A stretch of 49,637 nt of DNA, taken from contig MEGH01000046.1 of the NCBI GenBank assembly GCA_001725415.1, positions 1,721 to 51,357 of the forward strand. The letters are read 5' to 3'. Position numbers and translations under genes: made by a program. Shown one piece after another: positions 6,946 to 34,474 of the stretch (its first letter is position 1; every line of letters starts with the position of its first letter). The notes under the pieces are model-generated. The model made no database searches, was not told the origin of the DNA, and saw only the letters and a program-made list of their open reading frames with translations. This stretch comes from Pseudonocardia sp. SCN 73-27 (GTDB lineage Bacteria > Actinomycetota > Actinomycetes > Mycobacteriales > Pseudonocardiaceae).

Positions 6946-8628
6946 ATGACCGATGCGGAAGCCTTCTACGCGGCGCGCGACTTCCTGCTCGCCCACCGCA
7001 CCGACTACGACACCGCGGTGCGCGACTTCCGCTGGCCTGCGCTGACCGAGTTCAACTGGGCGCTCGACCACTTCGACAACGTCGCCGCCGACACGGAGCG
7101 TGGCGCGCGGCGGGCGCTGTGGATCGTCGAGAGCGACGGCTCCGAGGCGTACTGGACGTTCGCGGAGATGTCGTCGCGCTCCAACCGGGTGGCGAACTGG
7201 TTGCGCGCCAACGGCGTCGGCCGCGGCGACCGGATCATCCTGATGCTGGGCAACCAGCTGGAGCTGTGGGAGACGCTGCTCGCGGCGATGAAGCTCGGCG
7301 CGGTCGTGATCCCGGCGACGACACTCCTCACGGCCGAGGACCTGCGCGACCGGGTGGAGCGCGGCAACGCCAAGCACGTCGTCGTCGGCGGTACGGACGC
7401 GGGCAAGTTCGACGGCGTCGCGGGCGACTACACCCGCATCGCGGTGCGCGGCGCCCCCAAGGGCTGGCTCGACTACACCGAGGCCTACGACGCCGCCGAC
7501 ACCTTCGCCCCCGACGGCGTCACCCGCGCCGACGACACCCTCCTGCTGTACTTCACCTCGGGCACGACGGCGAAGCCGAAGCTCGTCGAGCACACCCACC
7601 AGTCCTACCCGGTCGGCCACCTGTCGACGATGTACTGGATCGGCCTCGAACCCGGCGACGTCCACCTCAACATCTCCTCGCCCGGCTGGGCCAAGCACGC
7701 GTGGTCCAACGTGTTCGCGCCGTGGATCGCCGAGGCGACCGTGCTGGTCATGAACTACGCGCGGTTCGACGCCGAGTCCGTGCTGGGCGTGCTGGAGCGG
7801 TGCGGCGTGGACAGCTTCTGTGCCCCGCCGACGGTGTGGCGCATGCTGATCCAGGCCGATCTGTCGACGTTGCGGACGCCGCCGCAGAAGGTCGTCGGTG
7901 CGGGGGAGCCGCTCAACCCCGAGGTGATCGAGCAGGTCGAGAAGGCCTGGGGCGTCCGTATCCGCGACGGCTTCGGCCAGACCGAGTCGAGCGTGCAGAT
8001 CGGCAACCCGCCCGGGCAGACGGTCAAGCCGGGCTCGATGGGCCGTCCGATCCCGGGCTTCCCGATCGAGCTGATCGACCCGTCCACCGGCAAGCCCGCC
8101 GACGAGGGCGAGATCTGCATCGACCTGTCGCGGCGCCCGACGGGACTGATGGTCGGCTACTACGGCGACGACGAGCGCAACGCCGAGGCCATGGCCGGCG
8201 GGTACTACCACACCGGTGACGTCGGCTCCCGCGACGACGACGGCTACATCACCTACGTCGGCCGCTCCGACGACGTCTTCAAGGCCAGCGACTACCGGAT
8301 CAGCCCGTTCGAGCTGGAGAGCGTGCTGATCGAGCACCCGGCGGTGGCGGAGGCGGCCGTCGTTCCGTCGCCGGACCCGGTGCGGCTCGCGGTGCCCAAG
8401 GCCTACGTGGTGCTGGCGTCGGGGCACTCGGCCGACGAGGCGACGGCGCGGTCGATCCTGGAGTTCGCGCGCGACAACCTGGCCCCGTACAAGCGGATCC
8501 GGCGGCTCGAGTTCGCCGACCTCCCGAAGACGATCTCCGGAAAGATCCGCCGGGTCGAGCTGCGGGGTCGTGAGCAGGAGATCCACGGCTCCGACTCCGA
8601 CGTCGCGCAGGGCGAGTACACCCTGTGA
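6946..8628 (+). CDS. AMP-dependent acyl-CoA synthetase/ligase
   Basis: The 560-residue enzyme activates a carboxylic acid with ATP and transfers the acyl-AMP to CoA. Visible adenylate-forming motifs are Y-F-T-S-G-T-T-A-K-P-K at residues 202-212 (A3 P-loop), G-F-G-Q-T-E-S at 342-348 (A5), Y-H-T-G-D-V (A7), and the catalytic Lys533 in P-K-T-I-S-G-K (A10). The overall pattern resembles the medium-chain/benzoate-CoA ligase group, but the substrate is not predictable. ATG at 6946 is preferred because GGAG lies six bases upstream; ATG 6916 is an alternative, and a TAGGGT box sits at 6899-6904. The TGA stop is part of the 40-bp palindrome at 8625-8664. Confidence 0.9.
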   Translation: MTDAEAFYAARDFLLAHRTDYDTAVRDFRWPALTEFNWALDHFDNVAADTERGARRALWIVESDGSEAYWTFAEMSSRSNRVANWLRANGVGRGDRIILMLGNQLELWETLLAAMKLGAVVIPATTLLTAEDLRDRVERGNAKHVVVGGTDAGKFDGVAGDYTRIAVRGAPKGWLDYTEAYDAADTFAPDGVTRADDTLLLYFTSGTTAKPKLVEHTHQSYPVGHLSTMYWIGLEPGDVHLNISSPGWAKHAWSNVFAPWIAEATVLVMNYARFDAESVLGVLERCGVDSFCAPPTVWRMLIQADLSTLRTPPQKVVGAGEPLNPEVIEQVEKAWGVRIRDGFGQTESSVQIGNPPGQTVKPGSMGRPIPGFPIELIDPSTGKPADEGEICIDLSRRPTGLMVGYYGDDERNAEAMAGGYYHTGDVGSRDDDGYITYVGRSDDVFKASDYRISPFELESVLIEHPAVAEAAVVPSPDPVRLAVPKAYVVLASGHSADEATARSILEFARDNLAPYKRIRRLEFADLPKTISGKIRRVELRGREQEIHGSDSDVAQGEYTL

Positions 8629-8664
8629 GTGGCGTTATTGGCCATGGCCAATAACGCCACTCAC
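8625..8664. repeat. 40-bp intergenic palindrome, copy 1
   Basis: A perfect 20+20 inverted repeat: outer arms GTGAGTGGC, inner GTTATTGGCCA. It lies exactly between two convergent genes and supplies the TGA stop of the ligase gene (8626-8628) and, on the reverse strand, the TGA of the DUF1707 gene (8661-8663). See copies at 11644, 22036, 29847, 33302 and 34435. Confidence 0.95.
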
Positions 8665-9089
8665 GACCTCGCTCGGGTCGTCGCACACGGCCAGTGGCGG
8701 CCCGTGAGGGTGCCGAGCACGAGCACGGCGCCCCACGGGCCGATCACCCAGACCGGCCAGAAGGGCTGCATCGCGCCGGTACCGAGGGACGTCGCGAGCC
8801 AGACGACCATGCAGATCGCGCCGACGGCGGCCCACGGTGCCCACATCGCAGCGCGCTGCAGGTTCCGCGGGGCGCGAGCCGGGCGCGCTGCACGAGCAGG
8901 CGCGGGCAGATCGCGGGTCACCGCGTCGAGGTCGGCCTGCGTGTGGGCGGCATGGACGGCGTCGAGCCGCGACTCGAACTCGGGCAGGTCGAGTCGCCCG
9001 GCGCCGACGTGGGTGCGCAGCAGCGCCTCGGTGCGCTCGCGTTCGGCGTCGCCGACCCGCAGGCCGGGTCGTGCGGTGTGCTCGGACAT
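8661..9089 (-). CDS. DUF1707 (SHOCT-like) domain membrane protein
   Basis: The 142-residue protein begins with a DUF1707 domain at about residues 9-60 (L-R-V-G-D-A-E-R-E-R-T-E ... G-R-L-D-L-P-E-F-E-S-R-L-D-A-V-H-A-A-H-T-Q-A-D-L). An Ala/Arg linker and two hydrophobic segments follow, consistent with two membrane spans. DUF1707 is common in actinobacteria and its role is unknown. The ATG at 9089 has GGAGGA just upstream. The longer frame to 9155 would start inside the 54-bp palindrome at 9121 and is rejected. The stop codon is provided by the 40-bp palindrome. Confidence 0.85.
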   Translation of the reverse strand: MSEHTARPGLRVGDAERERTEALLRTHVGAGRLDLPEFESRLDAVHAAHTQADLDAVTRDLPAPARAARPARAPRNLQRAAMWAPWAAVGAICMVVWLATSLGTGAMQPFWPVWVIGPWGAVLVLGTLTGRHWPCATTRARS

Positions 9090-9120
9090 CGGGTCCTCCG
9101 TCCCTGGGCGTGGACCCAGC

Positions 9121-9174
9121 CTGATCTGCCGTACCCAACATGTCAAGTTCGACATGTCGAATACGGCAGATCAG
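9121..9174. repeat. 54-bp intergenic palindrome of a second type
   Basis: Outer arms CTGATCTGCCGTA and TACGGCAGATCAG are perfect, and inner arms ACATGTC and GACATGT are perfect. The five mismatched pairs are all transitions, so they still allow G-T/G-U pairing. The element separates two reverse-strand genes and supplies the TGA stop (9171-9173) of the flavin reductase gene. No second copy was seen in this window. Confidence 0.85.
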
Positions 9175-9815
9175 GGAGAGGGTGGCGCGTCGGTGAAGTG
9201 CCCCGGCCAGTTCTTCCACGCGATCCGCGAGATCGTCACGACCTCACCCAGCCGCGACCACTCGTCGCGACCCAGCCGGGCCAGCGGGCGCAGCCGCTGC
9301 ACCGACGGCAGCGTGTTGCCGCGCTCGTCGGTGACCAGCACGTCCTCGTCCACGACGGCGTGCACCACCCGCCCGATCACGACCGTCGAGTCGCCCAGCG
9401 CCAGGTCGTGCTCCAGCCGGCACTCGAACGCGATCGGCGACTCCGCCACCCGCGGCGGCGCCACGACCGTGCTCGCCTCCGGGGTCAGCCCGACCGCGGT
9501 GAACTCGCTGATCTCCGCCGGGAAGTCCGTCGCCGTGGCGTTGATCCGCTCGAACATCGACTCCGTCGCCAGCGAGATCACGAACTCGCCCGTCTCGCGC
9601 ACGTTGCGCAGCGAGTCCTTCGTCCCGACCGAGGTGAACTGCAGCATCGGCGGATCCACGCACGACACCGTGAAGAACGAGTGCGGCGCGAGATTGTCGA
9701 CGCCGGCGGCCGACCGCGTCGACACCCAGGCGATCGGGCGCGGCACCACGGATGCCGTGAGCAGCTTGTAGAACGTCGAGGCGCCCATCTCGTCGGGAAC
9801 CATGTCGGTGCGCAT
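9171..9815 (-). CDS. flavin reductase family protein (FMN-binding split barrel)
   Basis: The 214-residue protein has the flavin-reductase-like split-barrel pattern: F-Y-K-L-L-T-A-S-V-V-P-R-P-I-A-W-V-S-T near the N-terminus, then N-L-A-P-H-S-F-F and the conserved D-S-x-R-N-x-x-x-x-G-E-F-V-I-S. Members bind FMN and either reduce free flavin for a partner oxygenase or act as other FMN oxidoreductases. No partner monooxygenase is adjacent. ATG at 9815 is used. The gene is divergent from cobD across 56 bases, and its stop codon falls in the 54-bp palindrome. Confidence 0.85.
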   Translation of the reverse strand: MRTDMVPDEMGASTFYKLLTASVVPRPIAWVSTRSAAGVDNLAPHSFFTVSCVDPPMLQFTSVGTKDSLRNVRETGEFVISLATESMFERINATATDFPAEISEFTAVGLTPEASTVVAPPRVAESPIAFECRLEHDLALGDSTVVIGRVVHAVVDEDVLVTDERGNTLPSVQRLRPLARLGRDEWSRLGEVVTISRIAWKNWPGHFTDAPPSP

Positions 9816-9859
9816 GCCCCGATCATCTCCCCGGACGCCCGGCGCCCGCAGCCGGACCG

Positions 9860-9865
9860 TAGCGT
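9860..9865 (+). promoter_or_regulatory. -10 box of leaderless cobD promoter
   Basis: TAGCGT ends six bases before the GTG at 9872, with no ribosome binding site, so cobD probably begins as a leaderless transcript. Confidence 0.55.
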
Positions 9866-9871
9866 CGCGGT

Positions 9872-10915
9872 GTGCGACCCTCCCGCGCCGCCGGCCTGCT
9901 CCTGGGCGTCCTCGCCGACGCGGCCTTCGGCGATCCCCGCCACCTCCATCCGGTGGCCGGGTTCGGACGGCTGGCCGCAGCGCTGGAGACCCGGACGTGG
10001 GCCGACGACCGCCGCCGCGGCGCGATCCACACCGCCGCGCTGGTCGGGGCCGTCGTCGGCGCGGGGGTCGCCGTCGAAAGATGTGCGCGGGGGCCGGTCG
10101 GTACTGCGGTCACCACGGCCGTGGCGACGTGGGCGGTCGTCGGCGGCCGGTCGCTGGTGGGGGAGGGCGCCGCGCTGGGACGCGAGCTCGCCGCCGACGA
10201 CCTCGCCGCCGCCCGGCGCCGCCTGCCCAGCCTGTGCGGGCGCGACCCGTCGACGCTCGACGCCGCCGGGATGGCCCGCGCCGGCGTGGAGTCGTTGGCG
10301 GAGAACACGTCCGACGCCGTGGTCGCCCCGCTGCTCTGGGGTGCCGTCGCCGGGGTGCCGGGGCTGCTGGGCTACCGCGCCGTCAACACCCTCGACGCGA
10401 TGATCGGGCACCGCTCCCCGCGCTACGAATGTTTCGGCTGGGCCGCCGCACGGCTCGACGACGTCGCCAACCTCGTACCCGCCCGGGTCGCGGCCGCGCT
10501 GTTCGCAGGGCTGGCGTCCGTCGTCGGCGGGTCACCGGCCGCGGCGGCGCGGGCCTGGCGTCGCGACGCCCACGCCCATCCCAGCCCGAACGCCGGGCCC
10601 GTCGAGGCCGCCGCGGCCGGGGCGCTCGGGCTGCGGCTCGGCGGCACGACCGTCTACCCCTACGGGGTGCAGGAACGGCCGGTGCTGGGCGAGGGCCGTC
10701 CCCCCGCCGTCGACGACCTGCTGCGTGCGGCGCGGCTGTCGCGGGCCGTCGGCGTCGCCGCGGCCCTCCTCGCGGCGGTGAGCGCCCTCAGGGGCGGTCG
10801 GGCGTCTCGTCGCGGCCCGCGAGAGCGTCGCGCAATGCCGTGCGCTCGGCGGCGCGGTCGCGGCGGCCGCGGCGCTGCAGGATCTCCAGCCGCACGAAGT
10901 AGCCGAGCGCGATGA
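9872..10915 (+). CDS. cobD: adenosylcobinamide-phosphate synthase (CobD/CbiB)
   Basis: This membrane enzyme attaches the aminopropanol arm to adenosylcobyric acid. Family motifs are intact: L-A-D-A-A-F-G-D-P, H-P-V-A-G-F-G, E-N-T-S-D-A-V-V-A-P-L-L-W, N-T-L-D-A-M-I-G-H-R-S-P-R-Y and H-P-S-P-N-A-G-P-V-E-A. The usual C terminus should fall near residue 304 (about position 10785), but there is no in-frame stop until 10915. The last 40 or so residues are Arg-rich and antisense to surf1. A stop (TGA 10779-10781) exists one frame over, so a small frameshift or a real tail are both possible. Start is GTG 9872, leaderless. Confidence 0.88.
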   Translation: MRPSRAAGLLLGVLADAAFGDPRHLHPVAGFGRLAAALETRTWADDRRRGAIHTAALVGAVVGAGVAVERCARGPVGTAVTTAVATWAVVGGRSLVGEGAALGRELAADDLAAARRRLPSLCGRDPSTLDAAGMARAGVESLAENTSDAVVAPLLWGAVAGVPGLLGYRAVNTLDAMIGHRSPRYECFGWAAARLDDVANLVPARVAAALFAGLASVVGGSPAAAARAWRRDAHAHPSPNAGPVEAAAAGALGLRLGGTTVYPYGVQERPVLGEGRPPAVDDLLRAARLSRAVGVAAALLAAVSALRGGRASRRGPRERRAMPCARRRGRGGRGAAGSPAARSSRAR

Positions 10916-11594
10916 TCGCGATGGCGCCGAACGTCAGCCACTGCAGCGCGTAGGAGAAGTTGGAGAACGGCGCCGCACCCTCACCGGCCTCGACCGGCAG
11001 CGGCGTGAGCACCCCGGGGCCGGTCTGCTGCGCGACATATCCCTCCACCATCGCGGTGCCCGCCGCGGCGGCGACGGTCCTCGAGTCGGCCGCGTACATC
11101 TGCCGGTGCCCGGCGACCTGGAACGCGGGCCGGCCCTGCGGGTCGGTCTCGTCGGTGCGCAGCCGGCCCTCGACGGTGACCTCGCCCTGCGGGGCGGGCG
11201 TGAAGTCCGGGACGGTCTGGCCGTCGAGCGCCCGGACGGTTCCCCGGTCGACGACGACGATCCGGCCGTCGGTGGTGCGCATCGGCGTCATGACCTCGAC
11301 GGCGGGCTTGCCGTCGACGACCCGCAACCGCACCACGGTCTCGTCCTGCGGGAGGAACGTGCCGGTGAGGCTGACCTGGCGCCACGTGACGTCGGAGTCG
11401 ACGGCGCCGCCCGGCACGAGCGTGCCGAACGGCACGGGGGCCATGGTGGCGGCGGTGTCGATCTGCTTCTGCTGCGCGTCGCGCTGGGACTCGCGGCCGA
11501 ACTGCCACGGCGCCAGGTAGACGTAGCAGGCCACGGCGAACCCGACGACCGCCACGACGAGGGCGATCCACTGGGGCCGCAGCAGGAAACGCAT
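10788..11594 (-). CDS. SURF1-family cytochrome c oxidase assembly protein
   Basis: The 268-residue protein has the SURF1 layout: one N-terminal membrane helix ([14 protein letters not shown]), the W-Q-F-G-R motif, a large extracytoplasmic domain with [15 protein letters not shown], and a second helix after [12 protein letters not shown]1 helps insert heme a into the aa3 oxidase, so it works with the ctaE-qcrCAB genes at 40-44.6 kb although it is not linked to them. ATG 11594 is preferred because ACGGTA at 11601-11606 gives a reverse-strand TACCGT box six bases upstream; GTG 11600 is the alternative. Its 3' end overlaps cobD antisense. Confidence 0.88.
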
Positions 11595-11643
11595 GCCCAC
11601 ACGGTATGCGGTCGGCGTCCGGGCGTGTCATCGCGGTGGGGTC

Positions 11644-11683
11644 GTGAGTGGCAATGGTCGCTATAGCGACCATTGCCACTCAC
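11644..11683. repeat. 40-bp intergenic palindrome, copy 2
   Basis: A perfect 20+20 inverted repeat with outer arm GTGAGTGGC and inner AATGGTCGCTA. It lies between the divergent surf1 and cobQ genes, so it cannot be a terminator for either of them. It ends nine bases before the presumed -10 box (GATACT, 11692-11697) of cobQ. Confidence 0.95.
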
Positions 11684-11703
11684 AGGGGTTCGATACTGGG
11701 CGC

Positions 11704-13248
11704 ATGTCCGGAGGTCTCCACGGTGCGCTGCTCGTCGCCGGGACGACGTCCGACGCCGGGAAGAGCGCCGTCGTCGCCGGGCTGTGCCGATGGCTGTACC
11801 GGCGCGGGGTGTCGGTCGCGCCGTTCAAGGCGCAGAACATGAGCAACAACTCCGTCGTGACGCCGGACGGCGGCGAGATCGGTCGCGCCCAGGCGATGCA
11901 GGCGCACGCGTGCGGGCTGGCCCCGAGCATCGACTTCAACCCCGTGCTGCTCAAGCCGGGCAGCGACCGGACGTCGCAGGTCGTGGTCCGCGGCCGCGCC
12001 GACGGCCACGTCACCGCCATGTCCTACCGGACCCGGACCGCGGCGCTGCGTGACGTCGTCGCCGACTCGCTCGCGCGCCTGCGCGCCCGCCACGACGTGG
12101 TCATCTGCGAGGGGGCCGGGTCTCCCGCGGAGATCAACCTGCGCGCCACCGACATCACCAACATGGGGCTGGCCCAGGCCGCGGACCTGCCCGTCGTCGT
12201 GGTCGGCGACATCGACCGCGGCGGCGTGCTCGCCCACCTGTTCGGGACGGTCGCCGTGCTCGACCCGGGCGACCAGGCGCGGATCGCGGGGTTCGTCGTC
12301 AACAAGTTCCGGGGTGACCCGGCATTGCTCGCGCCGGGGCTCGACCAGCTGCGCGCGTTGACCGGCCGCCCGACGCTCGGTGTGCTGCCCTGGTCGGACC
12401 GGCTCTGGCTCGACGCCGAGGACTCGCTGTCGGCGGTGGCCGATCGCGTGCTCGGGCGGCCTGCGCCGCCGCGCGGGTCGGCGTGGCTGCGGGTCGCGGT
12501 GGTGCGGCTGCCGCGCATCTCCAACGCCACCGACGCCGAGGCGCTGGCCTGCGAACCGGGCGTCGCCGTCCGGTACGCGACGGAGCCGTCGCGGCTGCTG
12601 GACGCCGACGTCGTCGTGCTGCCGGGGTCGAAGGCCACGGTGTCGGACCTGGAGTGGTTGCGGCGCACCGGTCTCGCCGACGCGGTGCTCGCCCACGCCA
12701 ATGCCGGGAAGCCGGTCGTCGGGATCTGCGGGGGCTATCAGATGCTCGGGCGGCGCATCGCCGACCCGGACGGGGTCGAGGTCGTGGGTGGCGCCGTGGT
12801 CGACGGCCTCGGGCTGCTCGACCTGGAGGTGCGGTTCGACGTCGACAAGCACCTGGCGACACCCTCCGGTGCCGGACTCGGCGAGTCCGTGCGCGGCTAC
12901 GAGATCCACCACGGACGCGTCGTGGCGTCCGGCGACCCGGTGCTGCTCGACGACCCGGGGGAGGGCTCCGACACGGGCGTGGTGCTCGGCACGCACTGGC
13001 ACGGGCTGCTGGAGAACGACGGCTTCCGCCGCGGCCTGCTCACCCGGCTCGCCGCCCAGGCCGGGCGCGACGGGTTCGTCGTCGCCCCCGACACCGACTT
13101 CGGCGCCGAGCGCACCGCCCAGCTCGACGTGCTCGGCGACCTGGTCGCCGACCACCTCGACACGGCGTCACTTGACCATGTCATCAATCACGGTGCGCCG
13201 CCGGAGCTCCCGGTCCTGACGACCGGTCTGGCAGAGTCGCGCGGGTGA
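11704..13248 (+). CDS. cobQ: cobyric acid synthase (CobQ)
   Basis: The 514-residue amidotransferase converts adenosylcobyrinate a,c-diamide to adenosylcobyric acid with glutamine and ATP (four amidations). The dethiobiotin-synthetase-like N-terminal domain has the P-loop G-T-T-S-D-A-G-K-S at residues 13-21 and the diagnostic K-A-Q-N-M-S-N-N-S. The class I glutaminase domain has Cys342 in I-C-G-G-Y-Q-M-L-G and a catalytic-type His433 in T-H-W-H-G. ATG 11704 follows a GATACT box at 11692-11697 with no ribosome binding site, suggesting a leaderless start. It overlaps the next gene by four bases (GTGA), so the downstream genes are translationally coupled. Confidence 0.95.
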
Positions 13249-15317: not shown

Positions 15318-15332
15318 GCAGGAGGAAGAAGA

Positions 15333-19611: not shown

Positions 19612-19792
19612 GGCGCTGTGGTGCAGTCCTCATCGACGGCAGTGGAGGAAGTCCGGTGCGAATCCGGCGCGGTCCCGCCACTGTCACGGGGAGCACGTCC
19701 GCCCACTCGAAGGCCATGTCCAGCGTCGGACGATCAGGCCGGGCGACGTGCGGTGATCCGGGAGCCAGGAGACTTCCTGCCGTCGTCGACAC
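19612..19792 (+). promoter_or_regulatory. cobalamin riboswitch
   Basis: The conserved core is easy to read: GGTGCGAATCCGG at 19655-19667, then GGTCCCGCCACTGT at 19671-19684, and the B12 box AGCCAGGAGACTTCCTGCC at 19763-19781. The spacing between core and box (about 80 bases, holding the variable helices) is normal. It ends about 40 bases before the ATG at 19831, whose GAGGAGG ribosome binding site is at about 19819-19825. Cobalamin should repress the downstream methylase-like gene and bluB-cobT; whether by translation or transcription is not clear, since no obvious terminator hairpin with a T-run is present. Confidence 0.95.
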
Positions 19793-19830
19793 CCCGACTT
19801 CGGAGGGCGAGGACCCTCGAGGAGGCGATC

Positions 19831-22035: not shown

Positions 22036-22075
22036 GTGAGTGGCGATAGTTGCTACAGCGACCATTGCCACTCAC
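22036..22075. repeat. 40-bp intergenic palindrome, copy 3
   Basis: Outer arms GTGAGTGGC/GCCACTCAC are intact. The inner arms differ from symmetry at four positions, all transitions. It separates convergent bluB-cobT and dinB and supplies the reverse-strand TGA stop of dinB (22072-22074). Confidence 0.93.
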
Positions 22076-26556: not shown

Positions 26557-26568
26557 CGGCCCCCCGGC

Positions 26569-26597: not shown

Positions 26598-26601
26598 GGT
26601 G

Positions 26602-27018: not shown

Positions 27019-27024
27019 TACCGT
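27019..27024 (+). promoter_or_regulatory. -10 box of the FAD oxidoreductase gene
   Basis: TACCGT ends seven bases before GTG 27032, with no ribosome binding site in between, consistent with a leaderless start. Confidence 0.5.
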
Positions 27025-27031
27025 CGACGTC

Positions 27032-28183
27032 GTGACCAGCACGAACGGTTCTGTCGACGTGGTCGTGATCGGTGGCGGGATCGCCGGGGCGTCGGTGGCC
27101 TACGAGCTCGCCGCGCACCGTCGCGTGCTGCTGCTGGAGGCCGAGCAGGCCCTGGCCACGCATTCGACGGCGCGCTCGGCGGCGACCTACATCCCCGGCC
27201 ACGGCACGGGCCCGGTGCGGGCTCTGGTCGCGGCGAGCCTGGAGCGGTTCGCCGCGCTCGCCGAGGAGCTCGACGCCCCGCCGCTGCTGACGCCGCGGAT
27301 GGTGGTGTGGGCGGGGTTCGACGACGACGGCGTCCGCGGCGTCGACGCGCTGCTCGCCGAACGCGTGGGAGAACCGCTTGCGCCGCAACGGATCACTTCG
27401 GAGGAGGCGGAACGGCTGAGCCCGGTGCTGCGGCCCGGTGCGGTGCAGGCCGCCGCGTTGACGTCGGAGTCGGCCGACATCGACGCCGCCGCGCTGCACG
27501 CCGCGTTCGTCCGTGGCCTGCGCCGCCGCGGCGGACGGGTGCGGACGTCGACCCGGGTCACGGGGATCGACCGGCTCGCCGACGGCTGGCGGGTCCACGT
27601 CGGCGACTCCGCCACGGACGTGCCCGACGTCGTCGACGCCGCCGGGGCGTGGGTGGACGTCGTCGCGGCCGCGGCCGGCGTCGCGCCGATCGGGCTGACC
27701 CCGTTGCGGCGCACCGCCGCCGTGCTCTCGGTCGCCGAGCCGGAGCGCCTCGCCGGTGTCGACGGCGGGCTGCAGCCGATGGTCACCGAGGTCGAGGAAC
27801 GCTTCTACTTCAAGACCGAGTCGGGCGGCCTGCTGGCCTCGCCGGGCGACGAGACGCCGTCGGACCCCGTCGACGCCCGCCCCGACGAGCTCGACGTGGC
27901 GCTCGCGCTGGAACGGGTCGCGGCGGTGACGACCCTGGGGTTGCGCTCGGTGCGGACGTCGTGGGCGGGGCTGCGCTCGTTCGTCGGCGACCGGTGCCCG
28001 GTCGTCGGATCCCGGCCGCACAACCCGGGGTTCCACTTCGTCGCAGGTCAGGGCGGGTCGGGGATCGAGACGTCGCCGGCGTTGGGGGCGTTCGCGGCTG
28101 CAGTGATCGCGGGGACGCCGGTGCCGGCGGACGTCGACCTCGATCCGGCGGAGCTGAGCCCGAATCGGCTGCCGCAAAAGTAA
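27032..28183 (+). CDS. FAD-dependent oxidoreductase (DAO family)
   Basis: The 383-residue protein belongs to the D-amino-acid oxidase/glycine oxidase-like flavoprotein group. The dinucleotide-binding motif is V-V-V-I-G-G-G-I-A-G-A-S-V-A-Y-E-L at residues 10-26. H-S-T-A-R-S-A-A follows as the second FAD contact, and the C-terminal F-H-F-V-A-G-Q-G-G-S-G-I-E-T-S-P-A closes the fold. The substrate, an amine or amino acid, cannot be named. The stop codon TAA (28181-28183) begins a TetR-type operator-like sequence in front of the P450 gene 35 bases downstream. The pair may act together, but the P450 has its own promoter-like box. Confidence 0.88.
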   Translation: MTSTNGSVDVVVIGGGIAGASVAYELAAHRRVLLLEAEQALATHSTARSAATYIPGHGTGPVRALVAASLERFAALAEELDAPPLLTPRMVVWAGFDDDGVRGVDALLAERVGEPLAPQRITSEEAERLSPVLRPGAVQAAALTSESADIDAAALHAAFVRGLRRRGGRVRTSTRVTGIDRLADGWRVHVGDSATDVPDVVDAAGAWVDVVAAAAGVAPIGLTPLRRTAAVLSVAEPERLAGVDGGLQPMVTEVEERFYFKTESGGLLASPGDETPSDPVDARPDELDVALALERVAAVTTLGLRSVRTSWAGLRSFVGDRCPVVGSRPHNPGFHFVAGQGGSGIETSPALGAFAAAVIAGTPVPADVDLDPAELSPNRLPQK

Positions 28184-28194
28184 GCGCTCGCTCA
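28181..28194. promoter_or_regulatory. TetR-type operator-like sequence before the P450 gene
   Basis: TAAGCGCTCGCTCA is an imperfect dyad resembling the TnAGCGCTCGCTnA sites known for actinobacterial TetR regulators of lipid and acyl-CoA genes. It lies 24 bases upstream of the P450 start, near the -35 region of the CACGAT box at 28205-28210. The regulator is not identifiable here. Confidence 0.4.
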
Positions 28195-28217
28195 CCATCG
28201 ATGGCACGATGGGGGTC

Positions 28218-29414
28218 ATGACGGAGACCACCGCCACCACCGGTACCCCCGAGCTCTTCGACGGTGCGTTCTGGAGCGACCCCTACCCGGCGTATGCCGC
28301 GCTGCGCGACGCGGCCCCGGTGCGGCGCATCGACCTCCCCGGCGGCCCGGCCTGGATCGTCACCCGCTACGACGACGTGCGCGCCGCCTTCACCGACCCC
28401 CGGCTGGCCAAGGACTGGCGCTGGACGCTGCCACCCGAGCAGCGCGCCGACGCCCCGGCCACGCCGATGATGATCCTCATGGACCCGCCGGACCACACCC
28501 GGCTGCGCAAGCTCGTCAGCCGGCCGTTCACGGCGCGGCGGATGGCCGAGCTGCGCCCGCGCGTCGAGGAGATCGCCGCCGACCTGCTGGCCGACCTCCC
28601 GGCCGAGGGCACCGTCGACCTCATGGCGCAGTACGCGTTCCTGCTGCCGGTGAGGGTGATCTGCGAGCTGCTCGGCGTGCCCGCCGAGGACCGTGACGAG
28701 TTCAGCGCCTGGTCGGCCACGATGGTCGACGACGCGCCCCAGGACGCCAAGCTGGCCGCGTCGCAGGAGATGAGCGCCTACCTGGGGCAGCTCGCCGGGC
28801 GCAAGGCCGCCGACCCCGGCGACGACCTGCTCTCCGCCCTCGTCGCCGTGTCCGAGGACGACGGCGACCGGCTGTCCGGCGAGGAGCTCGTCGCGATGGG
28901 TGTACTGCTGCTCATCGCCGGGCACGAGACGACCGTCAACCTCATCGGCAACGCCCTGCTGGGCCTGCTCACCCACCCCGACCAGCTCGAGCTGCTGCGC
29001 CGCGACCCCGGCCTGGGCAAGGGCGCGGTCGAGGAGTTCCTGCGCTGGGACTCACCCGTCGGCAACGCGCCCGTCCGGTTCACCACCGAGGACGTCGAGA
29101 TCGCGGGGACGACGATCCCCGGCGGGTCCGTCGTCATGCTCGGGTTGGGCGCGGCCAACCGCGACCCCGCCAGGTTCCCCGACGCCGACCGCCTCGACGT
29201 CACCCGCGACGCGAGCGGCCACGTCGCCTTCGGGCACGGCCTGCACTTCTGCCTCGGCGCGCAGCTCGCCCGTATCGAAGGCGACGTCGCGCTGCGCGCG
29301 CTGCTCGACCGCTACCCGTCGCTCACCCTCGCCGCCGACCCCGACGACCTGGTGTACCGGCACAGCACGCTCATCCGCGGGCTGCGCGAGCTGCCGGTCA
29401 CACTGGGGTCGTGA
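28218..29414 (+). CDS. cytochrome P450
   Basis: The 398-residue protein is a soluble bacterial P450. Key motifs are A-G-H-E-T-T at residues 234-239 (I-helix oxygen-activating), E273-x-x-R276 (K-helix), and F-G-H-G-L-H-F-C-L-G with the heme-ligating Cys345. N-terminal M-D-P-P-D-H-T-R-L-R is the usual B'/C-region motif. Overall similarity is to CYP105/CYP107-like groups, but family and substrate cannot be assigned reliably. No ferredoxin gene is adjacent, though an FprA-type reductase is present at 37.2 kb. ATG 28218 follows CACGAT by seven bases; ATG 28209 is an alternative start. Confidence 0.93.
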   Translation: MTETTATTGTPELFDGAFWSDPYPAYAALRDAAPVRRIDLPGGPAWIVTRYDDVRAAFTDPRLAKDWRWTLPPEQRADAPATPMMILMDPPDHTRLRKLVSRPFTARRMAELRPRVEEIAADLLADLPAEGTVDLMAQYAFLLPVRVICELLGVPAEDRDEFSAWSATMVDDAPQDAKLAASQEMSAYLGQLAGRKAADPGDDLLSALVAVSEDDGDRLSGEELVAMGVLLLIAGHETTVNLIGNALLGLLTHPDQLELLRRDPGLGKGAVEEFLRWDSPVGNAPVRFTTEDVEIAGTTIPGGSVVMLGLGAANRDPARFPDADRLDVTRDASGHVAFGHGLHFCLGAQLARIEGDVALRALLDRYPSLTLAADPDDLVYRHSTLIRGLRELPVTLGS

Positions 29415-29846
29415 ACCGCTCCGTGCCGATGACGCCGAGCAGCCGGATCTTCTCCTCGGCCTCCGAGCGGGGCGCGGCCGTCAGCACCAGCAGGGCCTGC
29501 GACTGGTCCTCGGTGAACAGCGCCTGACAGTCGACCTCGATGTCGCCGAGCTGCGGGTCGACCAGGATCTTGTGGTCGACGAGCCGCTGCGCCACCTCAT
29601 GGCGGTCCCACAGCTCGGCCCGTGAACCGCGACCGGTCGCCGTAGAGGGCCTCCGCCAGCGCGTTCTGCACCAGCACCTCACCCAGCGACGACAGGATCA
29701 GCGCCGGGGTGTCCGACAGCCGGTCGAGTACCCGCAACAGCGCGGGTGCCACGTGCGTGGCCACCCTCACCGGCGACGGCGCGTTGCGGCCGGCCACGTG
29801 GAACAGGTAGTCGCGCTCGGAGTCCGACAGCCGCGGCAACTGACCC
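29398..29846 (-). pseudogene. decayed XRE/MmyB-type regulator remnant
   Basis: Two overlapping reverse-strand frames together make a broken MmyB-like ligand-binding domain. The first part (from about 29839) reads L-P-R-L-S-D-S-E-R-D-Y-L-F-H-V-A-G and L-I-L-S-S-L-G-E-V-L-V-Q-N-A-L-A up to G-D-R-S-R-F-T-G. It then jumps, near 29625, to E-L-W-D-R-H-E-V-A in another frame, which continues D-I-E-V-D-C-Q-A-L-F-T-E-D-Q-S-Q to the normal C terminus. About 60 family residues between F-T-G and E-L-W-D-R-H are missing, and so is the whole helix-turn-helix domain. The broken 5' end is directly beside palindrome copy 4. An intact relative lies at 32039-32824. Confidence 0.8.
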
Positions 29847-29886
29847 GTGAGTGGCGTTATTGGCTATAGCCAATATCGCCACTCAC
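29847..29886. repeat. 40-bp intergenic palindrome, copy 4
   Basis: Outer arms GTGAGTGGC/GCCACTCAC, inner TTATTGGCTA, with one mismatched pair; it belongs to the same inner-arm subtype as copy 1. It encodes the last residues and TAA stop of scoB on the reverse strand and abuts the truncated 5' end of the decayed MmyB gene. Confidence 0.95.
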
Positions 29887-30516
29887 GGGTCGGAGAAGCT
29901 CAGCGTCGGTTGCCGCGCGGACCTCGTCCGCGGTCACGCCCGGCGCCGTCTCCACGAGGACCAGGCCCCGGTCGGTGACGTCGACGACCGCGAGGTCGGT
30001 GACGATCCGGTCCACGCACGCCAGGCCCGTCAGCGGCAGCGTGCACTCCTCGACGATCTTCGGCGACCCGTCGCGCGAGACGTGCTCCATCATCACGACG
30101 ACCTTCGCCGCCCCGTGGACGAGGTCCATCGCCCCACCCATGCCCTTGATCATCTTGCCCGGGACGGCCCAGTTCGCGAGGTCGCCGCGTGTGCTGACCT
30201 GCATCGCCCCCAGCACCGCGACGTCGACGTGGCCGCCGCGGATCATCCCGAAGCTCGTCGACGACCCGAAGAAGCTCGCCCCCGGCCGCACCGTCACGGT
30301 CTCCTTCCCCGCGTTGATGAGGTCGGCATCGATCTCGTCCTCGGTCGGGTAGGGACCGACGCCGAGGATGCCGTTCTCCGAGTGCAGCACCAGCTCCCGG
30401 CCCGGCGGGACGTGCCCGGGCACGAGCGTCGGCATGCCGATGCCGAGGTTGACGTAGGCACCGTCGGGCAGCTCCGCCGCGACCCGAGCGGCCAGCTCGT
30501 CACGCGTGAGCGCCAT
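29857..30516 (-). CDS. scoB: 3-oxoacid CoA-transferase subunit B
   Basis: The 219-residue beta subunit carries the catalytic Glu in H-S-E-N-G-I-L-G and the G-M-P-T-L-V-P and [10 protein letters not shown] signatures of class I CoA-transferases. It moves CoA between succinyl-CoA (or another acyl-CoA) and a 3-oxoacid. ATG 30516 overlaps the stop of scoA (ATGA), so the two subunits are translationally coupled. The natural C terminus appears to end near L-L-R-P; the final V-S-G-D-I-G-Y-S-Q and the TAA stop are encoded by palindrome copy 4. Confidence 0.92.
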
Positions 30517-31277
30517 CAGGAACCCCCTCCGGAGCGCAGGGTCCGGAACTCGATCCGCTTCTCCACCCCGGACGCGTCGACGACCCGCTGCACGTGGATG
30601 CCGGGCGTGTGCACGGAGTCCGGGTCGATCTCCCCGGGCTCCACCAGGTGCTCCACCTCGGCGATCGTGATCCGCCCCGCGGCCGCACAGTCGGGGGAGA
30701 AGTTGCGCGACGAGCGTCGGTACACGAGGTTGCCGTGCCGGTCACCCTTCCAGGCGTGCACCAGCGCGAAGTCGGTGACGATCGCCTGCTCCATGACGTA
30801 GGTGGCGCCGTCGAACTCGCGGGTCTCCTTCGCCGGCGACGCCACGGCGACGCTCCCGTCGGAGGCGTAGCGCCACGGCAGACCGCCGTCGGCGACGAGG
30901 GTCCCCACCCCGGCCGGGGTGTAGAACGCCGGGATGCCCGCCCCGCCCGCGCGCAGCCGCTCCGCGAGCGTGCCCTGCGGCGTCAGCTCCACCTCGACCT
31001 CACCGGCGAGGTACTGGCGGGCGAACTCCTTGTTGTTGCCGACGTAGGAGCCGATGGTGCGCCGGATCCGCCCGGCGGCCAGCAGGTTCCCGAGGCCGAA
31101 CCCGTCGACGCCGAGGTTGTTGCTGACGGTCTCCAGGTCGGTGGCGCCCTGGGCGAGCAGCGCCTCGATCAGCGTGACCGGCACGCCCGACATCCCGAAC
31201 CCGCCGACGGCGAGCGACGCCCCGTCGGGGATGTCCGCGACGGCCTCCGCCGCCGACGCGACCACCTTGTCGATCAT
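30516..31277 (-). CDS. scoA: 3-oxoacid CoA-transferase subunit A
   Basis: The 253-residue alpha subunit starts M-I-D-K-V-V and has [10 protein letters not shown] (the G-G-F-G loop that binds CoA), [10 protein letters not shown] and [10 protein letters not shown]. The S-Y-V-G-N-N-K-E segment favours the succinyl-CoA:3-ketoacid (ScoA) type over 3-oxoadipate transferase PcaI. ATG 31277 has only a weak AAAGG upstream. A TAGCCT box lies on the reverse strand at 31304-31309, next to a 16-base CG palindrome (31310-31325). scoB follows with a four-base overlap. Confidence 0.92.
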
Positions 31278-31338
31278 GGCCCGGCCTTTGTGCGCATGGC
31301 CGCAGGCTAACCCGCGCGCGCGGGTCACGACCTGTGCG

Positions 31339-31995
31339 TCAGCGCAGCGCGGCGGCCAGATCGTCGACGGACTCGAAGACGTTCACCGCGCCCGCCTCCT
31401 CCAGCTCGCCGGGGTCGGCGTAGCCCCACCCCGCGCCCAGGCAGGCGATGCCGTGCGCGGCCGACCCGGCGACGTCGTTGCGCCGGTCGCCCACCATCAC
31501 CGCACGCTCGGCGGCGCCGGACCCCAGGCGGCGCAACGCTTCCGCGACCACGTCGGCCTTGGTGGGGCGGCCGGCGTCGAGGGTGTCGCCGACGATCGTC
31601 GTGAACAGGTCGGTCCAACCGTGGTGGTCGAGGATGCGCTCGGCGTAGACCTCCGACTTGCTCGTCGCCAGCACCAGTCGGACCCCGGCGGCCGACAGGT
31701 CGCGCAGCAGGGCGTCGATACCGGGGTAGGGGGCGCAGTCGTAGAGTCCGCCCGCGGCATAGTGCCTGCGGTAGACGACCAGCGCCTCGTCGGCCAGGTC
31801 GTCGCCGACGATGCCCGGCAGCGTCGTGTAGAGCGGCGGGCCGAGGACGTGGCGGCCGACCGCACCCGGCGCCACCTCGATGCCCATCTCGGCGAACGCG
31901 GCGGCCAGCGAGCCGAGGATTCCGGACGCGGAGTCGACGAGGGTGCCGTCGAGGTCGAGCAGAACGGTGTCGTGGCGGGTCGTCACGTGCTCCAT
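31339..31995 (-). CDS. HAD-family hydrolase (phosphoglycolate phosphatase-like)
   Basis: The 218-residue protein has all four HAD motifs: D-L-D-G-T-L-V-D-S with nucleophile Asp14 and Asp16, L-A-T-S-K-S with the Thr/Ser, a Lys in T-K-A-D-V-V, and V-G-D-R-R-N-D-V. The helical cap between motifs I and II places it in the Gph/PGP subfamily. It probably dephosphorylates a small phosphometabolite such as phosphoglycolate, but the specificity is not visible. ATG 31995 is used; GTG 31986 is an alternative. It lies 61 bases upstream of scoA on the same strand. Confidence 0.88.
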   Translation of the reverse strand: MEHVTTRHDTVLLDLDGTLVDSASGILGSLAAAFAEMGIEVAPGAVGRHVLGPPLYTTLPGIVGDDLADEALVVYRRHYAAGGLYDCAPYPGIDALLRDLSAAGVRLVLATSKSEVYAERILDHHGWTDLFTTIVGDTLDAGRPTKADVVAEALRRLGSGAAERAVMVGDRRNDVAGSAAHGIACLGAGWGYADPGELEEAGAVNVFESVDDLAAALR

Positions 31996-32038
31996 CGTGG
32001 CCGACCCACGCCTCGGTGACCCGCCCCGGTCGGTGACG

Positions 32039-32824
32039 TCACGTCGCGAGCGCCCGCAACGCATCGGCCGTCGCGGCGTCGGCCGGGTGGAACGTCTCGA
32101 CGGCCAGCTCCTCGACGGTCACGTCCGCCGCCGTCGTGACGTGCGCGGCCAGCGAGAACAGCGCGAGCTCCCCGCCGGGTACCCGCAGCCGCAGCGGCAC
32201 GACGACCGCGCCCGGCCCCGGGTCCTCGTCGGTCCCACCCGGGTACGCGGCCAGCTCCTCGTGCAGTGCCGCGAGCCGGGCGTCGCCGGTCCGTTCGGCG
32301 CGGCGGCGGACCTGGCCCAGCAGGTGTGCCCGCCACTGCGGGAGGTTCGCGATCCGCGGCGCCAGCCCGTCGGGGTGCAGGCTGACCCGCAGCACGTTGA
32401 GGGGTGGCTCCAGCAGGTGCGGGGCGCACCCGGCGAGCAGTGCCGACGCGGCGGCGTTGGCGTCGACGAGGTCCCACCACCGGTCGAGCAGCAACGCCGG
32501 GTGCGGCAGGTGCGCGGCCAGCACCGCGGCCAGCGCGTCCCGCACCCCGGCCAGTGCGGGGTCGTCGAGGCCGTGCTGCGGGTAGGCGGGCGCGAACCCG
32601 GCGGCGAGCAGCATCGCGTTGCGCTCCCGCAACGGGACCTCCAGGTCGTCCGCGATCCGCAGGATCATGCGGGCCGTCGGACGGCTGCGGCCTGTCTCGA
32701 TCCAGCTCAGGTGCCTCGTCGACACCTCGGTGCGGTTCGACAGCTCCAGCTGGGAGAGCCGTCGACGTTCCCGCCACTCGCGCAGCAGGACCCCGACGGG
32801 GCGGGTCGCGGTCGGGGTCGTCAT
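32039..32824 (-). CDS. XRE-family regulator with MmyB-like ligand-binding domain
   Basis: The 261-residue protein has an N-terminal helix-turn-helix at residues about 10-65 (R-L-S-Q-L-E-L-S-N-R-T-E-V-S-T-R-H-L-S-W-I-E-T-G-R-S-R-P). A C-terminal MmyB-type domain of the PAS-like fold follows (L-L-L-D-R-W-W-D-L-V-D-A-N, then a late V-T-V-E-E-L-A-V-E-T-F-H-P). Such actinobacterial regulators usually stand divergent from the enzyme gene they control, here the SnoaL-like gene. The 119-bp divergent gap contains a perfect 21-bp palindrome. ATG 32824 follows a reverse-strand TACCGT (ACGGTA at 32832-32837) by seven bases, so it is probably leaderless. Confidence 0.9.
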   Translation of the reverse strand: MTTPTATRPVGVLLREWRERRRLSQLELSNRTEVSTRHLSWIETGRSRPTARMILRIADDLEVPLRERNAMLLAAGFAPAYPQHGLDDPALAGVRDALAAVLAAHLPHPALLLDRWWDLVDANAAASALLAGCAPHLLEPPLNVLRVSLHPDGLAPRIANLPQWRAHLLGQVRRRAERTGDARLAALHEELAAYPGGTDEDPGPGAVVVPLRLRVPGGELALFSLAAHVTTAADVTVEELAVETFHPADAATADALRALAT

Positions 32825-32857
32825 GGCCCCGACGGTAGTGCGCCGGGGTCGTCGCGA

Positions 32858-32878
32858 CGATGACCTCCGAGGTCATCG
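32858..32878. promoter_or_regulatory. 21-bp perfect palindrome, probable operator
   Basis: CGATGACCTC-C-GAGGTCATCG lies midway between the divergent XRE-MmyB and SnoaL-like genes, about 20 bases behind the regulator's -10 box. Position and symmetry fit an operator for the XRE dimer that controls both genes. Confidence 0.7.
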
Positions 32879-32943
32879 ACGTCCTGCCCTCGACGGCCGC
32901 AGGATCGGTGCCGTTCACATCGACACCACGAACGGAGACCACG

Positions 32944-33297
32944 ATGAGCACCCTCGCCGACACCTACCTCGCCTGCTGGAACGAGACCGACCCGCAGGCC
33001 CGCCGCACCCTCGTCGAACAGCATTGGGCCCCCGACGCGGCCTACACCGACCCGCTCGTCGACGTCGCCGGCCACGACGGCGTCGCCGCCACCATCGCCG
33101 CGGTGCAGGAGCAGTTCCCGGGGTTCGTGTTCACCCCCGTCGGGCCCGTCGACGCCCACCACCGGCTGGCCCGCTTCGGCTGGGGGCTGGGCCCGGCGGG
33201 GCAGGAGCCGATCGTCGTCGGGTTCGACGTGGTCGTCACCGACGAGCAGGGCCGCATCGAGCGGGTCCTGGGATTTCTGGACAAGGTCCCGGCGTGA
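32944..33297 (+). CDS. SnoaL-like (NTF2 fold) protein
   Basis: The 117-residue protein fits the SnoaL/NTF2-like alpha+beta barrel: a first helix L-A-D-T-Y-L-A-C-W-N-E-T-D, then H-W-A-P-D-A-A-Y-T-D-P and the hinge G-H-D-G-V-A-A-T-I. The closing strands are F-D-V-V-V-T-D-E-Q-G-R-I-E-R-V-L-G-F. Members act as cyclases, isomerases or binding proteins for small hydrophobic molecules; no substrate is indicated. ATG 32944 has CGGAGA upstream. It is divergent from the XRE-MmyB gene, which is its probable regulator. Palindrome copy 5 begins five bases after its stop. Confidence 0.85.
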   Translation: MSTLADTYLACWNETDPQARRTLVEQHWAPDAAYTDPLVDVAGHDGVAATIAAVQEQFPGFVFTPVGPVDAHHRLARFGWGLGPAGQEPIVVGFDVVVTDEQGRIERVLGFLDKVPA

Positions 33298-33301
33298 GCC
33301 T

Positions 33302-33341
33302 GTGAGTGGCGATGGTCGCTATAGCGACCATCGCCACTCAC
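33302..33341. repeat. 40-bp intergenic palindrome, copy 5
   Basis: A perfect 20+20 inverted repeat with outer arm GTGAGTGGC and inner GATGGTCGCTA. It lies between the SnoaL-like gene and pcaB-like gene on the same strand, 15 bases before the pcaB -10 box (TACGCT, 33356-33361). Copy 6 sits at the other end of the same gene. Confidence 0.95.
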
Positions 33342-33368
33342 GACCCCCTTCTGACTACGCTCCGCGGC

Positions 33369-34445
33369 ATGTCCGACGCTCCGGGGGGAATGCTCGGCCC
33401 ACTGCTGGGCGCGGACCGCGTCGCCGCGACGCTCGACGCCCGGGCCTGGCTGCACGCGCTGCTCGACGTCGAGGTGGCCCTCACCCACGCGGCCGCGGGG
33501 CAGGGACTCGTCGACGACGCGTGGCAGGTCGAGCGGGCCGCCGAGGAGCTGCGGGACGCGCTCGACCCCGCGGTCCTGGCCGTCGAGGCCGTCGAGGGCG
33601 GCAACCCGGTGATCCCGTTGGTGCGCAGGCTGCGCGCCGCCGCCGGACCGGCCGGGGCTGCGGTGCACCCGGGCGCCACCAGCCAGGACGTCATGGACAC
33701 CGCGCTGGTCCTGCTCGTCCGCGCCGCCACGGCGGTGATCGACGACGACCTGCGCGGCGCGGCCGACGCCGCGGCCCGGCTGGCCGCGACGCACCGAGAC
33801 ACCCCGATGGCCGCCCGCACCCTGGGCCAGCAGGCCCTGCCGACGACGTTCGGCCTCGTCGCCGCGGGCTGGTGCGCCGGCCTGGACCGGGCCCGGCACG
33901 GCCTCGCGGGCGTCGTCGGCACGCTGCCCGTGCAGTTCGGGGGAGCGGCGGGGACGCTCGCGGCGTCCCGCCCCCACGGGCCGGCCGTGGCCGACGCGCT
34001 CGCCGACCGGCTCGCCCTCGGCGTCGCTGCCGGGGCCTGCGCCAAACCGGCGACTGACGTCGTGCTCCTCGCCGCGACCGAGGTCGGCGAGGTGTCGGAG
34101 TCGGCGCCGGGCGCGTCGTCGTCCATGCCGCACAAGCGCAACCCGGTCGCGGCGGTGACGGCGCGGGCGTCGGCGCGTCGGGCTCCGGGCCTGGTGGCGA
34201 CGCTGCTCGCCTCCGCCGACCACGAGCACCAGCGGGCAGCCGGGCCCTGGCACGCCGAGTGGCCGGCGCTGACCGACCTGTTGTGTGCCACCGGCGGGGC
34301 CGCCGCGCGGCTGCGTACCTGCCTCGAGGGGCTGCAGGTGCACCCGGAGGCCATGGCGCGCAACCTGTCTCTGACCGACGCGGGTGGGACGCCGAATCAC
34401 GCCGGCGACCTCGTCGACCGCATCCTGCGGGGTCGTGAGCGGTAG
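33369..34445 (+). CDS. pcaB: 3-carboxy-cis,cis-muconate cycloisomerase-like protein (fumarase/aspartase superfamily)
   Basis: The 358-residue protein has the superfamily signature G-A-S-S-S-M-P-H-K-R-N-P and the earlier G-A-T-S-Q-D. The N-terminal A-R-A-W-L-H-A-L-L-D-V-E-V-A-L pattern is typical of PcaB, which cyclises 3-carboxymuconate in the protocatechuate pathway. It is shorter than usual (about 440): roughly 20 residues seem absent between A-D-R-L-A-L and the A-K-P-A-T-D-V-V-L-L segment, and the C-terminal domain is short. No other pca genes are adjacent. ATG 33369 follows TACGCT by seven bases (leaderless). Palindrome copy 6 supplies its TAG stop, so the gene is bracketed by two copies. 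Confidence 0.8.
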   Translation: MSDAPGGMLGPLLGADRVAATLDARAWLHALLDVEVALTHAAAGQGLVDDAWQVERAAEELRDALDPAVLAVEAVEGGNPVIPLVRRLRAAAGPAGAAVHPGATSQDVMDTALVLLVRAATAVIDDDLRGAADAAARLAATHRDTPMAARTLGQQALPTTFGLVAAGWCAGLDRARHGLAGVVGTLPVQFGGAAGTLAASRPHGPAVADALADRLALGVAAGACAKPATDVVLLAATEVGEVSESAPGASSSMPHKRNPVAAVTARASARRAPGLVATLLASADHEHQRAAGPWHAEWPALTDLLCATGGAAARLRTCLEGLQVHPEAMARNLSLTDAGGTPNHAGDLVDRILRGRER

Positions 34446-34474
34446 CAGTCGCTGTAGCGACCACTACCGCGCAC
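34435..34474. repeat. 40-bp intergenic palindrome, copy 6 (diverged)
   Basis: GTGAGCGGTAGCAGTCGCTG faces a right arm ending CTACCGCGCAC; four base pairs are broken. The inner CGCT-core matches copies 2, 3 and 5. It encodes the last codons and the TAG stop (34443-34445) of the pcaB-like gene and lies 16 bases before the next start. Confidence 0.88.

Follow-up and report, generated by a model that had tools for sequence, protein, structure and literature searches.

The 49,637-nucleotide stretch of Pseudonocardia sp. SCN 73-27 analysed here (from contig MEGH01000046.1; hereafter the window) carries six copies of a 40-bp palindrome, and the question raised by this locus is how the two arms of such an element can remain complementary while their sequence changes. 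An earlier note, made from the sequence of the window, had offered three explanations, namely selection on a hairpin, a two-fold protein site, or copying in the manner of repetitive extragenic palindromes (REPs) or miniature inverted-repeat transposable elements (MITEs). We found that the six copies belong to a large and apparently undescribed family of REP-like palindromes of the Pseudonocardiales, with relatives in Rhodococcus. The existence of this family, its fixed length, the covariation of its arms, its placement at stop codons and the finding of no Y1 transposase in the window genome (G000) are firm observations. The reading that we prefer, and hold tentatively, is that the palindrome is kept symmetric and partly homogenised at the DNA level by a route that does not involve a REP-associated tyrosine transposase (RAYT), and that it is used or tolerated as a bidirectional 3′-end hairpin.

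A 40-bp palindrome family with paired arms

The six copies, numbered 1 to 6 and all of 40 bp, begin at positions 8625, 11644, 22036, 29847, 33302 and 34435 of the window, just as the earlier note had it. Those at 8625, 11644 and 33302 are perfect palindromes, the one at 29847 has a single mismatched pair, and those at 22036 and 34435 have four each, with seven of these eight mismatches being of the transition type (the exception is A4/G37 in copy 6). No other 40-bp stretch of the window reaches 16 of 20 pairs; 20 Markov shuffles of the window contained 0–2 stretches at or above that number each, with 17 pairs at best, and an outer-arm match was found in one of the 20. A covariance model trained on 56 copies returned the same six and no seventh, and six of the seven GTGAGYGG words on the + strand of the window begin a copy.

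Across the genome (6.95 Mb in 99 contigs), the pattern GTGAGYGG-N24-CCRCTCAC was matched exactly 168 times, with 0 matches for the reversed control, and letting the gap vary from 10 to 40 gave 175 matches, only seven more, so that the length of 40 is nearly fixed. A lack of copies beyond the window, or arms varying without preserved pairing, had been named in the earlier note as grounds for giving up its claim; copies were instead abundant and their arms vary with pairing kept. Within the genus, 41 of 62 genomes had matches and 33 had at least three copies, the highest numbers being 313, 257, 168, 143 and 127 (genomes G041 and G474 agree in their numbers and may be duplicates of a single genome). 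In a class-wide sample, five of 394 genomes matched: G000 itself, another member of its order, whose 11 copies have a different type of arm, and three genomes with a single match each. Among named records there were at least 109 stretches, from Pseudonocardia, Amycolatopsis, Saccharopolyspora, Actinophytocola, Qaidamihabitans, Prauserella, metagenome-assembled genomes (MAGs) of Pseudonocardiales, and Rhodococcus; the Rhodococcus species among the matches listed were koreensis, opacus, wratislaviensis and jostii, and one Planctomycetota MAG, also among the matches listed, probably matched by chance. All of these exact-pattern counts are lower bounds. Genome G067, with 0 exact copies, gave 63 covariance-model matches (both strands counted), and some of its diverged 40-bp copies (L262, L263, L274) have paired changes even in the outer arms, e.g. 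GTGCGCGG/CCGCGCAC; of seven other genomes with zero exact copies, five still had 0 model matches and two had 5 and 2. We found no description of the 40-bp family in the literature searched, subscription papers being mostly outside the reach of that search, and the text of Di Nocera et al. contains none of the terms actinobact-, Pseudonocardia, Amycolatopsis, Rhodococcus and Frankia.

Structure and placement were determined for a set of 282 copies, collected by means of the element itself and hence not random, having at most two outer-arm mismatches and at least 14 of 20 pairs (from 14 pairs in four copies up to 20 in 64 copies). The set comprised 124 copies from named records, 152 from fetched stretches (genomes G000, G023, G017, G060 and G020) and the six of the window; a copy found in a named as well as an unnamed record was counted once, under the named one, and stretches L001–L004 (duplicates) and L114–L139 (viral) were excluded. 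It takes in 56 of about 175 copies of G000, window included, and 36 of 68 copies of G017. G023 is P. sulfidoxydans, with an identity to G000 of 85–92% over matched pieces of the window segment, and we took the window genome to be a Pseudonocardia near that species.

The outer arms of the element are conserved, GTGAGYGGC/GCCRCTCAC, with an in-built TGA on either strand, followed by an inner arm of seven bases that are free to vary provided that both sides vary together, and by a small conserved centre, often GC-YATR-GC. Many copies in Pseudonocardia have asymmetric flanks, CCT...GAC, and 105 copies could be oriented by CCT-[40]-GA(C/G), while the commonest flanks in the named-record set (Amycolatopsis included) are symmetric, these being GTC/GAC, CCC/GGG and CTC/GAG.

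That pairing is conserved while sequence changes was strongly supported. Pairs 10–16 were complementary in 87–95% of the 282 copies, as compared with 34–77% expected for independent arms. Among 56 distinct copies, 96.4% of cells were paired (79.6% when shuffled), 159 cells had changed on both sides (40.7 when shuffled), and the covariation score was 0.450 (0.134 when shuffled; 0 of 500 shuffles), falling to at most 0.102 when the partner position was slid. Covariation was present also within single genomes, with inner arms varying widely inside G000 (GTTATTGGC, AATGGTCGC, ATTACTGGC, AATCATGGC) and pairing retained. The symmetry extends in part to the dyad, as pair 19/22 covaries in two of three genomes, namely G000 (p = 0.002) and G017 (0 of 2000 permutations), and pair 20/21 in G023 (p = 0.01), marginally in G017 (p = 0.05) and not in G000 (p = 0.57). 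Neither of these two pairs could close in an RNA hairpin, because the loop would then have two or zero nucleotides.

Stop codons and the RNA hairpin

By gap class, which is approximate because the genes were called with a codon-usage script, the 282 copies fell into 133 convergent, 107 codirectional and 14 divergent cases, while a further 16 lay within called genes and 12 at the edge of a stretch. This corresponded to densities of about 4.0, 1.24 and 0.24 copies per kb of convergent, codirectional and divergent intergenic DNA, respectively, in the same stretches. The median distance to the upstream stop was 6 nt, with 79% of 373 upstream gene ends at the element or at most 30 nt from it, and at 85 of the 373 the stop codon was the element's own TGA (in GTGAG); in six of the 133 convergent pairs, that of copy 1 included, both genes stop on the element. 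In gaps with at least 150 bp free, copies lay at most 12 nt from a stop in 50% of 26 convergent and 48% of 33 codirectional cases, where uniform placement predicts 7% and 5% and 0 of 200 simulations reached what was observed. This clustering in wide gaps argues that the placement at stop codons is not just a matter of lack of room. The median 60-nt energy was −38.9 at convergent ends with the element and −25.2 at those without it, and −36.8 at codirectional ends with the element. At some orthologous gene ends without the element another hairpin is found, in some cases strikingly so; these cases did not extend to gene ends in general, as would be expected if another hairpin always replaced an absent element.

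Intrinsic terminators without a U-tract are an actinobacterial type, and the copies may be ordinary members of it, with selection acting on the RNA hairpin, compensatory evolution occurring in place, and the likeness between copies reflecting a preferred hairpin. The very stable hairpins found a few nucleotides behind stops in convergent and codirectional gaps, as well as the frequency of one-sided changes in five of the six genome pairs (see below), agree with this explanation. So does the work of Gupta and Pal (PMC8355165), which in the portions consulted describes hairpins near stops that act as terminators, with poly-U dispensable. However, an RNA hairpin under selection would tolerate G·U and not A·C, and among the 67 transition-type mismatches on the sense strand of the 107 codirectional copies there were 32 G·U and 35 A·C (G·U share 0.48, about 0.35–0.60), a nearly even split that argues against purely RNA-level maintenance. 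The polarity of strict flanks relative to transcription was likewise without significant bias (15 vs 21, p = 0.41), a near-exact length of 40 bp and outer arms conserved across genera are unnecessary for termination, and the innermost pairs covary in two of three genomes, where RNA cannot pair them. One arm type found at old sites, described below, is moreover lineage-specific. The hairpin option of the earlier note, if taken as selection on RNA alone, is therefore not supported, even if these comparisons of RNA- and DNA-level maintenance would turn out alike for young copies that selection has yet to filter. We regard the terminator explanation as possible, with the balance of evidence leaning away from it.

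Arm types at shared sites and the search for a mover

At the 12 sites where G000 and G023 both carry the element, orthologous copies differed at 6.08 of 36 arm positions and non-orthologous pairs at 6.52 (p = 0.26), and four other genome pairs, with three to seven sites each, gave p values of 0.48 to 1.0 in this orthologue test; the difference within G023, which is homogeneous, was 2.88 of 36 and that within G000 was 7.89. Of 45 stem pairs changed between G000 and G023, 28 had changed on both sides and were paired in both genomes and 17 were one-sided. All 13 genomes or species sets had copies that were closer within the set than to the median other set, with the nearest other set being as close or closer in six of the 13, because several Pseudonocardia have the GATNGTCGC arm in common.

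The clearest lineage-specific arms were those ending in TGGC, found in 41 of 108 copies in G000, in 0 of 46 from G023/P. sulfidoxydans (selected by synteny or by the outer arms alone) and in 0 of 74 fetched copies of G017, where one further copy has such an arm (GATGGTGGC); P. eucalypti has TGGC-ended arms of another make in three of 12. At three of the 12 shared sites, copy 1 included, the arm is of the TGGC type in G000 and TCGC in G023. Most simply, a new arm type would have arisen in the lineage of G000 and then have taken over sites that already existed, and we consider lineage-specific arms at shared sites to be moderately firm. Among the options in the earlier note, REP/MITE-like copying fits best with the dispersed single copies, the likeness of arms within most genomes and the lineage-specific arm type at shared sites. 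Single sites have also been gained and lost: that of copy 5 lacks the element in G023 and G017, and one Amycolatopsis site is empty in G467 and G473.

In the preferred reading, arms would be kept identical by DNA-level copying or conversion without a REP-type Y1 transposase, and new arm versions would take over existing sites by the same process. Copies directly behind stop codons would persist, and these may serve, in either orientation, as the 3′-end hairpin of one or both neighbours, acting as a transcription terminator or a block to read-through.

Several results weigh against this reading. The G000/G023 orthologue test rests on 12 sites, and G000 is not homogeneous, its within-genome difference of 7.5–7.9 of 36 exceeding its difference to the G023 orthologues. 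For G000/G060 (seven sites), the test leaned towards orthologues being closer, i.e. towards evolution in place (p = 0.051). One-sided changes outnumbered paired ones in the other five genome pairs (paired/one-sided 12/19, 9/11, 9/11, 5/9 and 5/10), an excess that fits slow compensatory evolution equally well. Pair 19/22 showed no covariation in G023 (p = 0.45), though pair 20/21 does covary there, and a looser set of flanks gave a polarity of 19 vs 31 (p = 0.12). The role in termination is predicted from sequence, and no U-tract was found, with T at 0–5% at downstream positions 1–3 and at most two T in the 8 nt downstream at 339 of the 373 ends. Finally, replacement by another hairpin was not general at 33 gene ends (median z −0.38, obtained with imperfect frame walking and with several diverged elements flagged as absent).

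A variant of DNA-level maintenance would be a self-templating palindrome, in which fold-back or template-switch synthesis, or hairpin-guided conversion, again by a non-RAYT route, copies one arm to the other and overwrites dispersed copies in place. We regard it as conceivable rather than likely; if true, sets of stop-codon hairpins would change sequence together, with length and symmetry retained.

The element may also be a mobile or selfish hairpin repeat without host function, found behind stops through purging elsewhere or through insertion into existing terminators. This would account for the patchy exact copy numbers, from 0 to 313 within the genus, for the Amycolatopsis site that is occupied in some species and empty in others, where the interval drops from 179 to 45 bp, and for sites at which hairpins of other families stand in the same position. 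Yet the clustering at most 12 nt from stops in wide gaps exceeds what uniform tolerance predicts, no transposase was identified, and the 105 oriented copies showed no convincing target-site duplication (the highest z was 4.0, for a 4-mer, with an identity of 0.55 vs 0.53), making this explanation unlikely. Copy 2 with 10 bp of flanks had no match in plasmid and phage records. Spread by viruses was rejected as well: 26 IMG/VR stretches match the outer arms, and with 8–13 of 20 pairs in 24 of them and 14, the floor of the cut-off, in two, we read these as chance.

The third option of the earlier note, a two-fold site for an abundant DNA-binding protein (a nucleoid protein or a gyrase-like one) with a preference that changes from species to species and takes all copies with it, would agree with the fixed outer arms, the fixed length, the symmetry up to the dyad and the lineage-specific arms. 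A protein site would, however, fix letters and not pairing, and the inner arms of G000 differ widely yet are paired; we consider this improbable. A canonical REP moved by a RAYT was already disfavoured and is highly improbable, since the agreement in size, position downstream of genes and supplied stop codons with the REPs of PMC3733652, in the portions consulted, is offset by the lack of a Y1 transposase in G000, of a consistent GTAG/CGTC tag and of dimers within 200 bp.

A REP-associated transposase, which the earlier note had suggested looking for, was thus rejected as the mover. No match to PF01797 was found in G000, and in 25 genomes of the genus its presence did not track copy number, with Y1 transposases in one of nine genomes having at least 30 exact copies and in two of nine having none. 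No enzyme for the copying was found, the Y1 transposase family being the only one searched for. Among 77 neighbour distances, 0 were of 200 bp or less and the smallest was 209 bp, so that there is no arrangement in dimers or bacterial interspersed mosaic elements (BIMEs); one extra half arm lies 36 bp from the copy at L026:2211.

Set against known systems, the 40-mer is like a REP in place and spread and fails the tests of tag, dimer and RAYT. REPs are palindromes of 20–40 bp downstream of genes that may themselves supply stop codons, TAG in the case of GTAG REPs, and CGTC REPs apparently also occur without a RAYT (PMC3733652, portions consulted); REP abundance is tied to the cognate RAYT, and replacement of REP versions, or 'orthoswitch', has been reported (PMC3686654, portions consulted). 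The 40-mer is similarly a short, dispersed, high-copy palindrome with lineage-specific versions in convergent and codirectional gaps, supplying TGA from its termini, with 254 of the 282 copies in intergenic gaps, the 16 mentioned above inside a called gene and 12 undecided. It differs in having no unpaired tetranucleotide tag of a consistent kind (in the 6 bp next to each end of the 282 copies, with both readings counted, GTAG occurred 0 times, CTAC 2, CGTC 9 and GACG 7, with GTGG uncounted), no opposed pairs at short distance as in BIMEs or REP doublets forming hairpins (REPINs), and no cognate RAYT found in G000 or in repeat-rich relatives, as well as in being nearly always 40 bp, symmetric up to the centre and without G·U excess on the sense strand. 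From U-tract-less terminators, with which it has in common the stable hairpin a few nucleotides past the stop and the frequent convergent gaps, it differs in its outer arms and length being conserved across genera, its lineage-specific arms and the lack of a demonstrated orientation preference. In Neisseria and Haemophilus, inverted DNA-uptake sequences function as terminators, and these too are conserved short words, inverted and forming hairpins at gene ends; in contrast to them, the word of the 40-mer is hardly ever single in the window. MITEs are likewise short non-autonomous repeats with inverted ends, and one Amycolatopsis copy sits in a longer repeat, with matches of roughly 55–115 bp at many places; the 40-mer differs from MITEs in that no target-site duplication and no related autonomous element were found.

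The family adds a major repeat class to biotechnologically weighty actinomycetes (Pseudonocardia, Amycolatopsis and Rhodococcus). With its hundreds of copies providing stop codons and perhaps ending transcripts, it matters for gene annotation, for the prediction of operons and for the design of terminators, and the paired arm changes at shared sites without a REP transposase make the old REP question, gene conversion or transposition, testable in close strains.

The six copies and their surroundings

The neighbours of the copies in the window were supported by Pfam, and the term 'intergenic' used in the earlier note holds loosely: copies 1 and 3 supply stop codons, and copies 4 and 6 overlap coding 3′ ends. 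Copy 1 (8625..8664), a perfect palindrome with arm type GTTATTGGC, lies in a convergent gap between an AMP-binding ligase gene (+, ends 8628) and a DUF1707 gene (−, ends 8661), which take their stop codons from its two TGA triplets; in P. sulfidoxydans the arm at this site is GATAGTCGC. Copy 2 (11644..11683; arm AATGGTCGC, perfect) is exceptional in lying in a divergent gap, between SURF1 (−) and CobB/CobQ-like (+) genes, and its orthologous place has the element in G023 and G060 and none in G017 and G020. Beside the copy 2 orthologue of G060 (L142:13892-14066) there is a run of GGGGTC-like repeats together with a partial extra arm, as if the flank of the element had been multiplied.

Copy 3 (22036..22075; four mismatched pairs) lies in a convergent gap 4 nt past the stop of a nitroreductase/phosphoribosyltransferase gene (+; presumably CobT-like) and gives the TGA stop to a convergent impB/mucB-family polymerase gene (−, ends 22072). 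Copy 4 (29847..29886), with arm GTTATTGGC and one mismatch, is entered by a CoA-transferase reading frame (−, 29857-30516) that terminates on a TAA within it. Copy 5 (33302..33341; arm GATGGTCGC, perfect) is 4 nt past the stop of a SnoaL-like gene (+), where a codirectional, presumably PcaB-like lyase gene starts; it was tallied as 'inside' owing to the called GTG start of the lyase gene within the element. The lyase gene (+, 33306-34445) in turn terminates on a TAG within copy 6 (34435..34474; outer arm GTGAGCGGT, four mismatches), which is followed by an AlkZ-like glycosylase gene (+) and is shared by G023 and G060. In G017 and G020, the lyase and AlkZ-like genes are 841 and 919 bp apart at the place of copy 6 (L146:2940-3850 and L148:14850-15812), and this interval reads, by eye, like an IclR-type regulator gene.

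Other hairpin repeats were seen along the way. A second family, mostly of 39 bp (ACGGCAC...GTGCCGT), has fixed outer arms and paired variable inner arms like the 40-mer, with pattern counts of 14 in G000, 55 in G023, 35 in G017 and 27 in G060, some matches of other lengths looking like chance. It was found in the L149:2444 and 17430 neighbourhoods and at L160:11450, L161:1211 and L162:2976, and it occupies some gene ends whose orthologues in a sister species carry the 40-mer. The Amycolatopsis region L060:6111-6289 and its orthologues L254–L261 contain, besides the 40-mer, which lies there in the longer repeat mentioned above, further hairpin repeats, e.g. with arms TACATGAAGGCCCCCTTCC. In A. 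decaplanina (L256), two half-elements are separated by about 540 bp that contain other hairpin repeats; this may be a nested insertion, but as the half-elements differ in arm type, a deletion between two copies is as likely. At gathering score, no Rfam family matched at the six copies, and the sole match in the window was a cobalamin riboswitch at 19623-19795 (RF00174, 59.4 bits), located near cobalamin-type genes.

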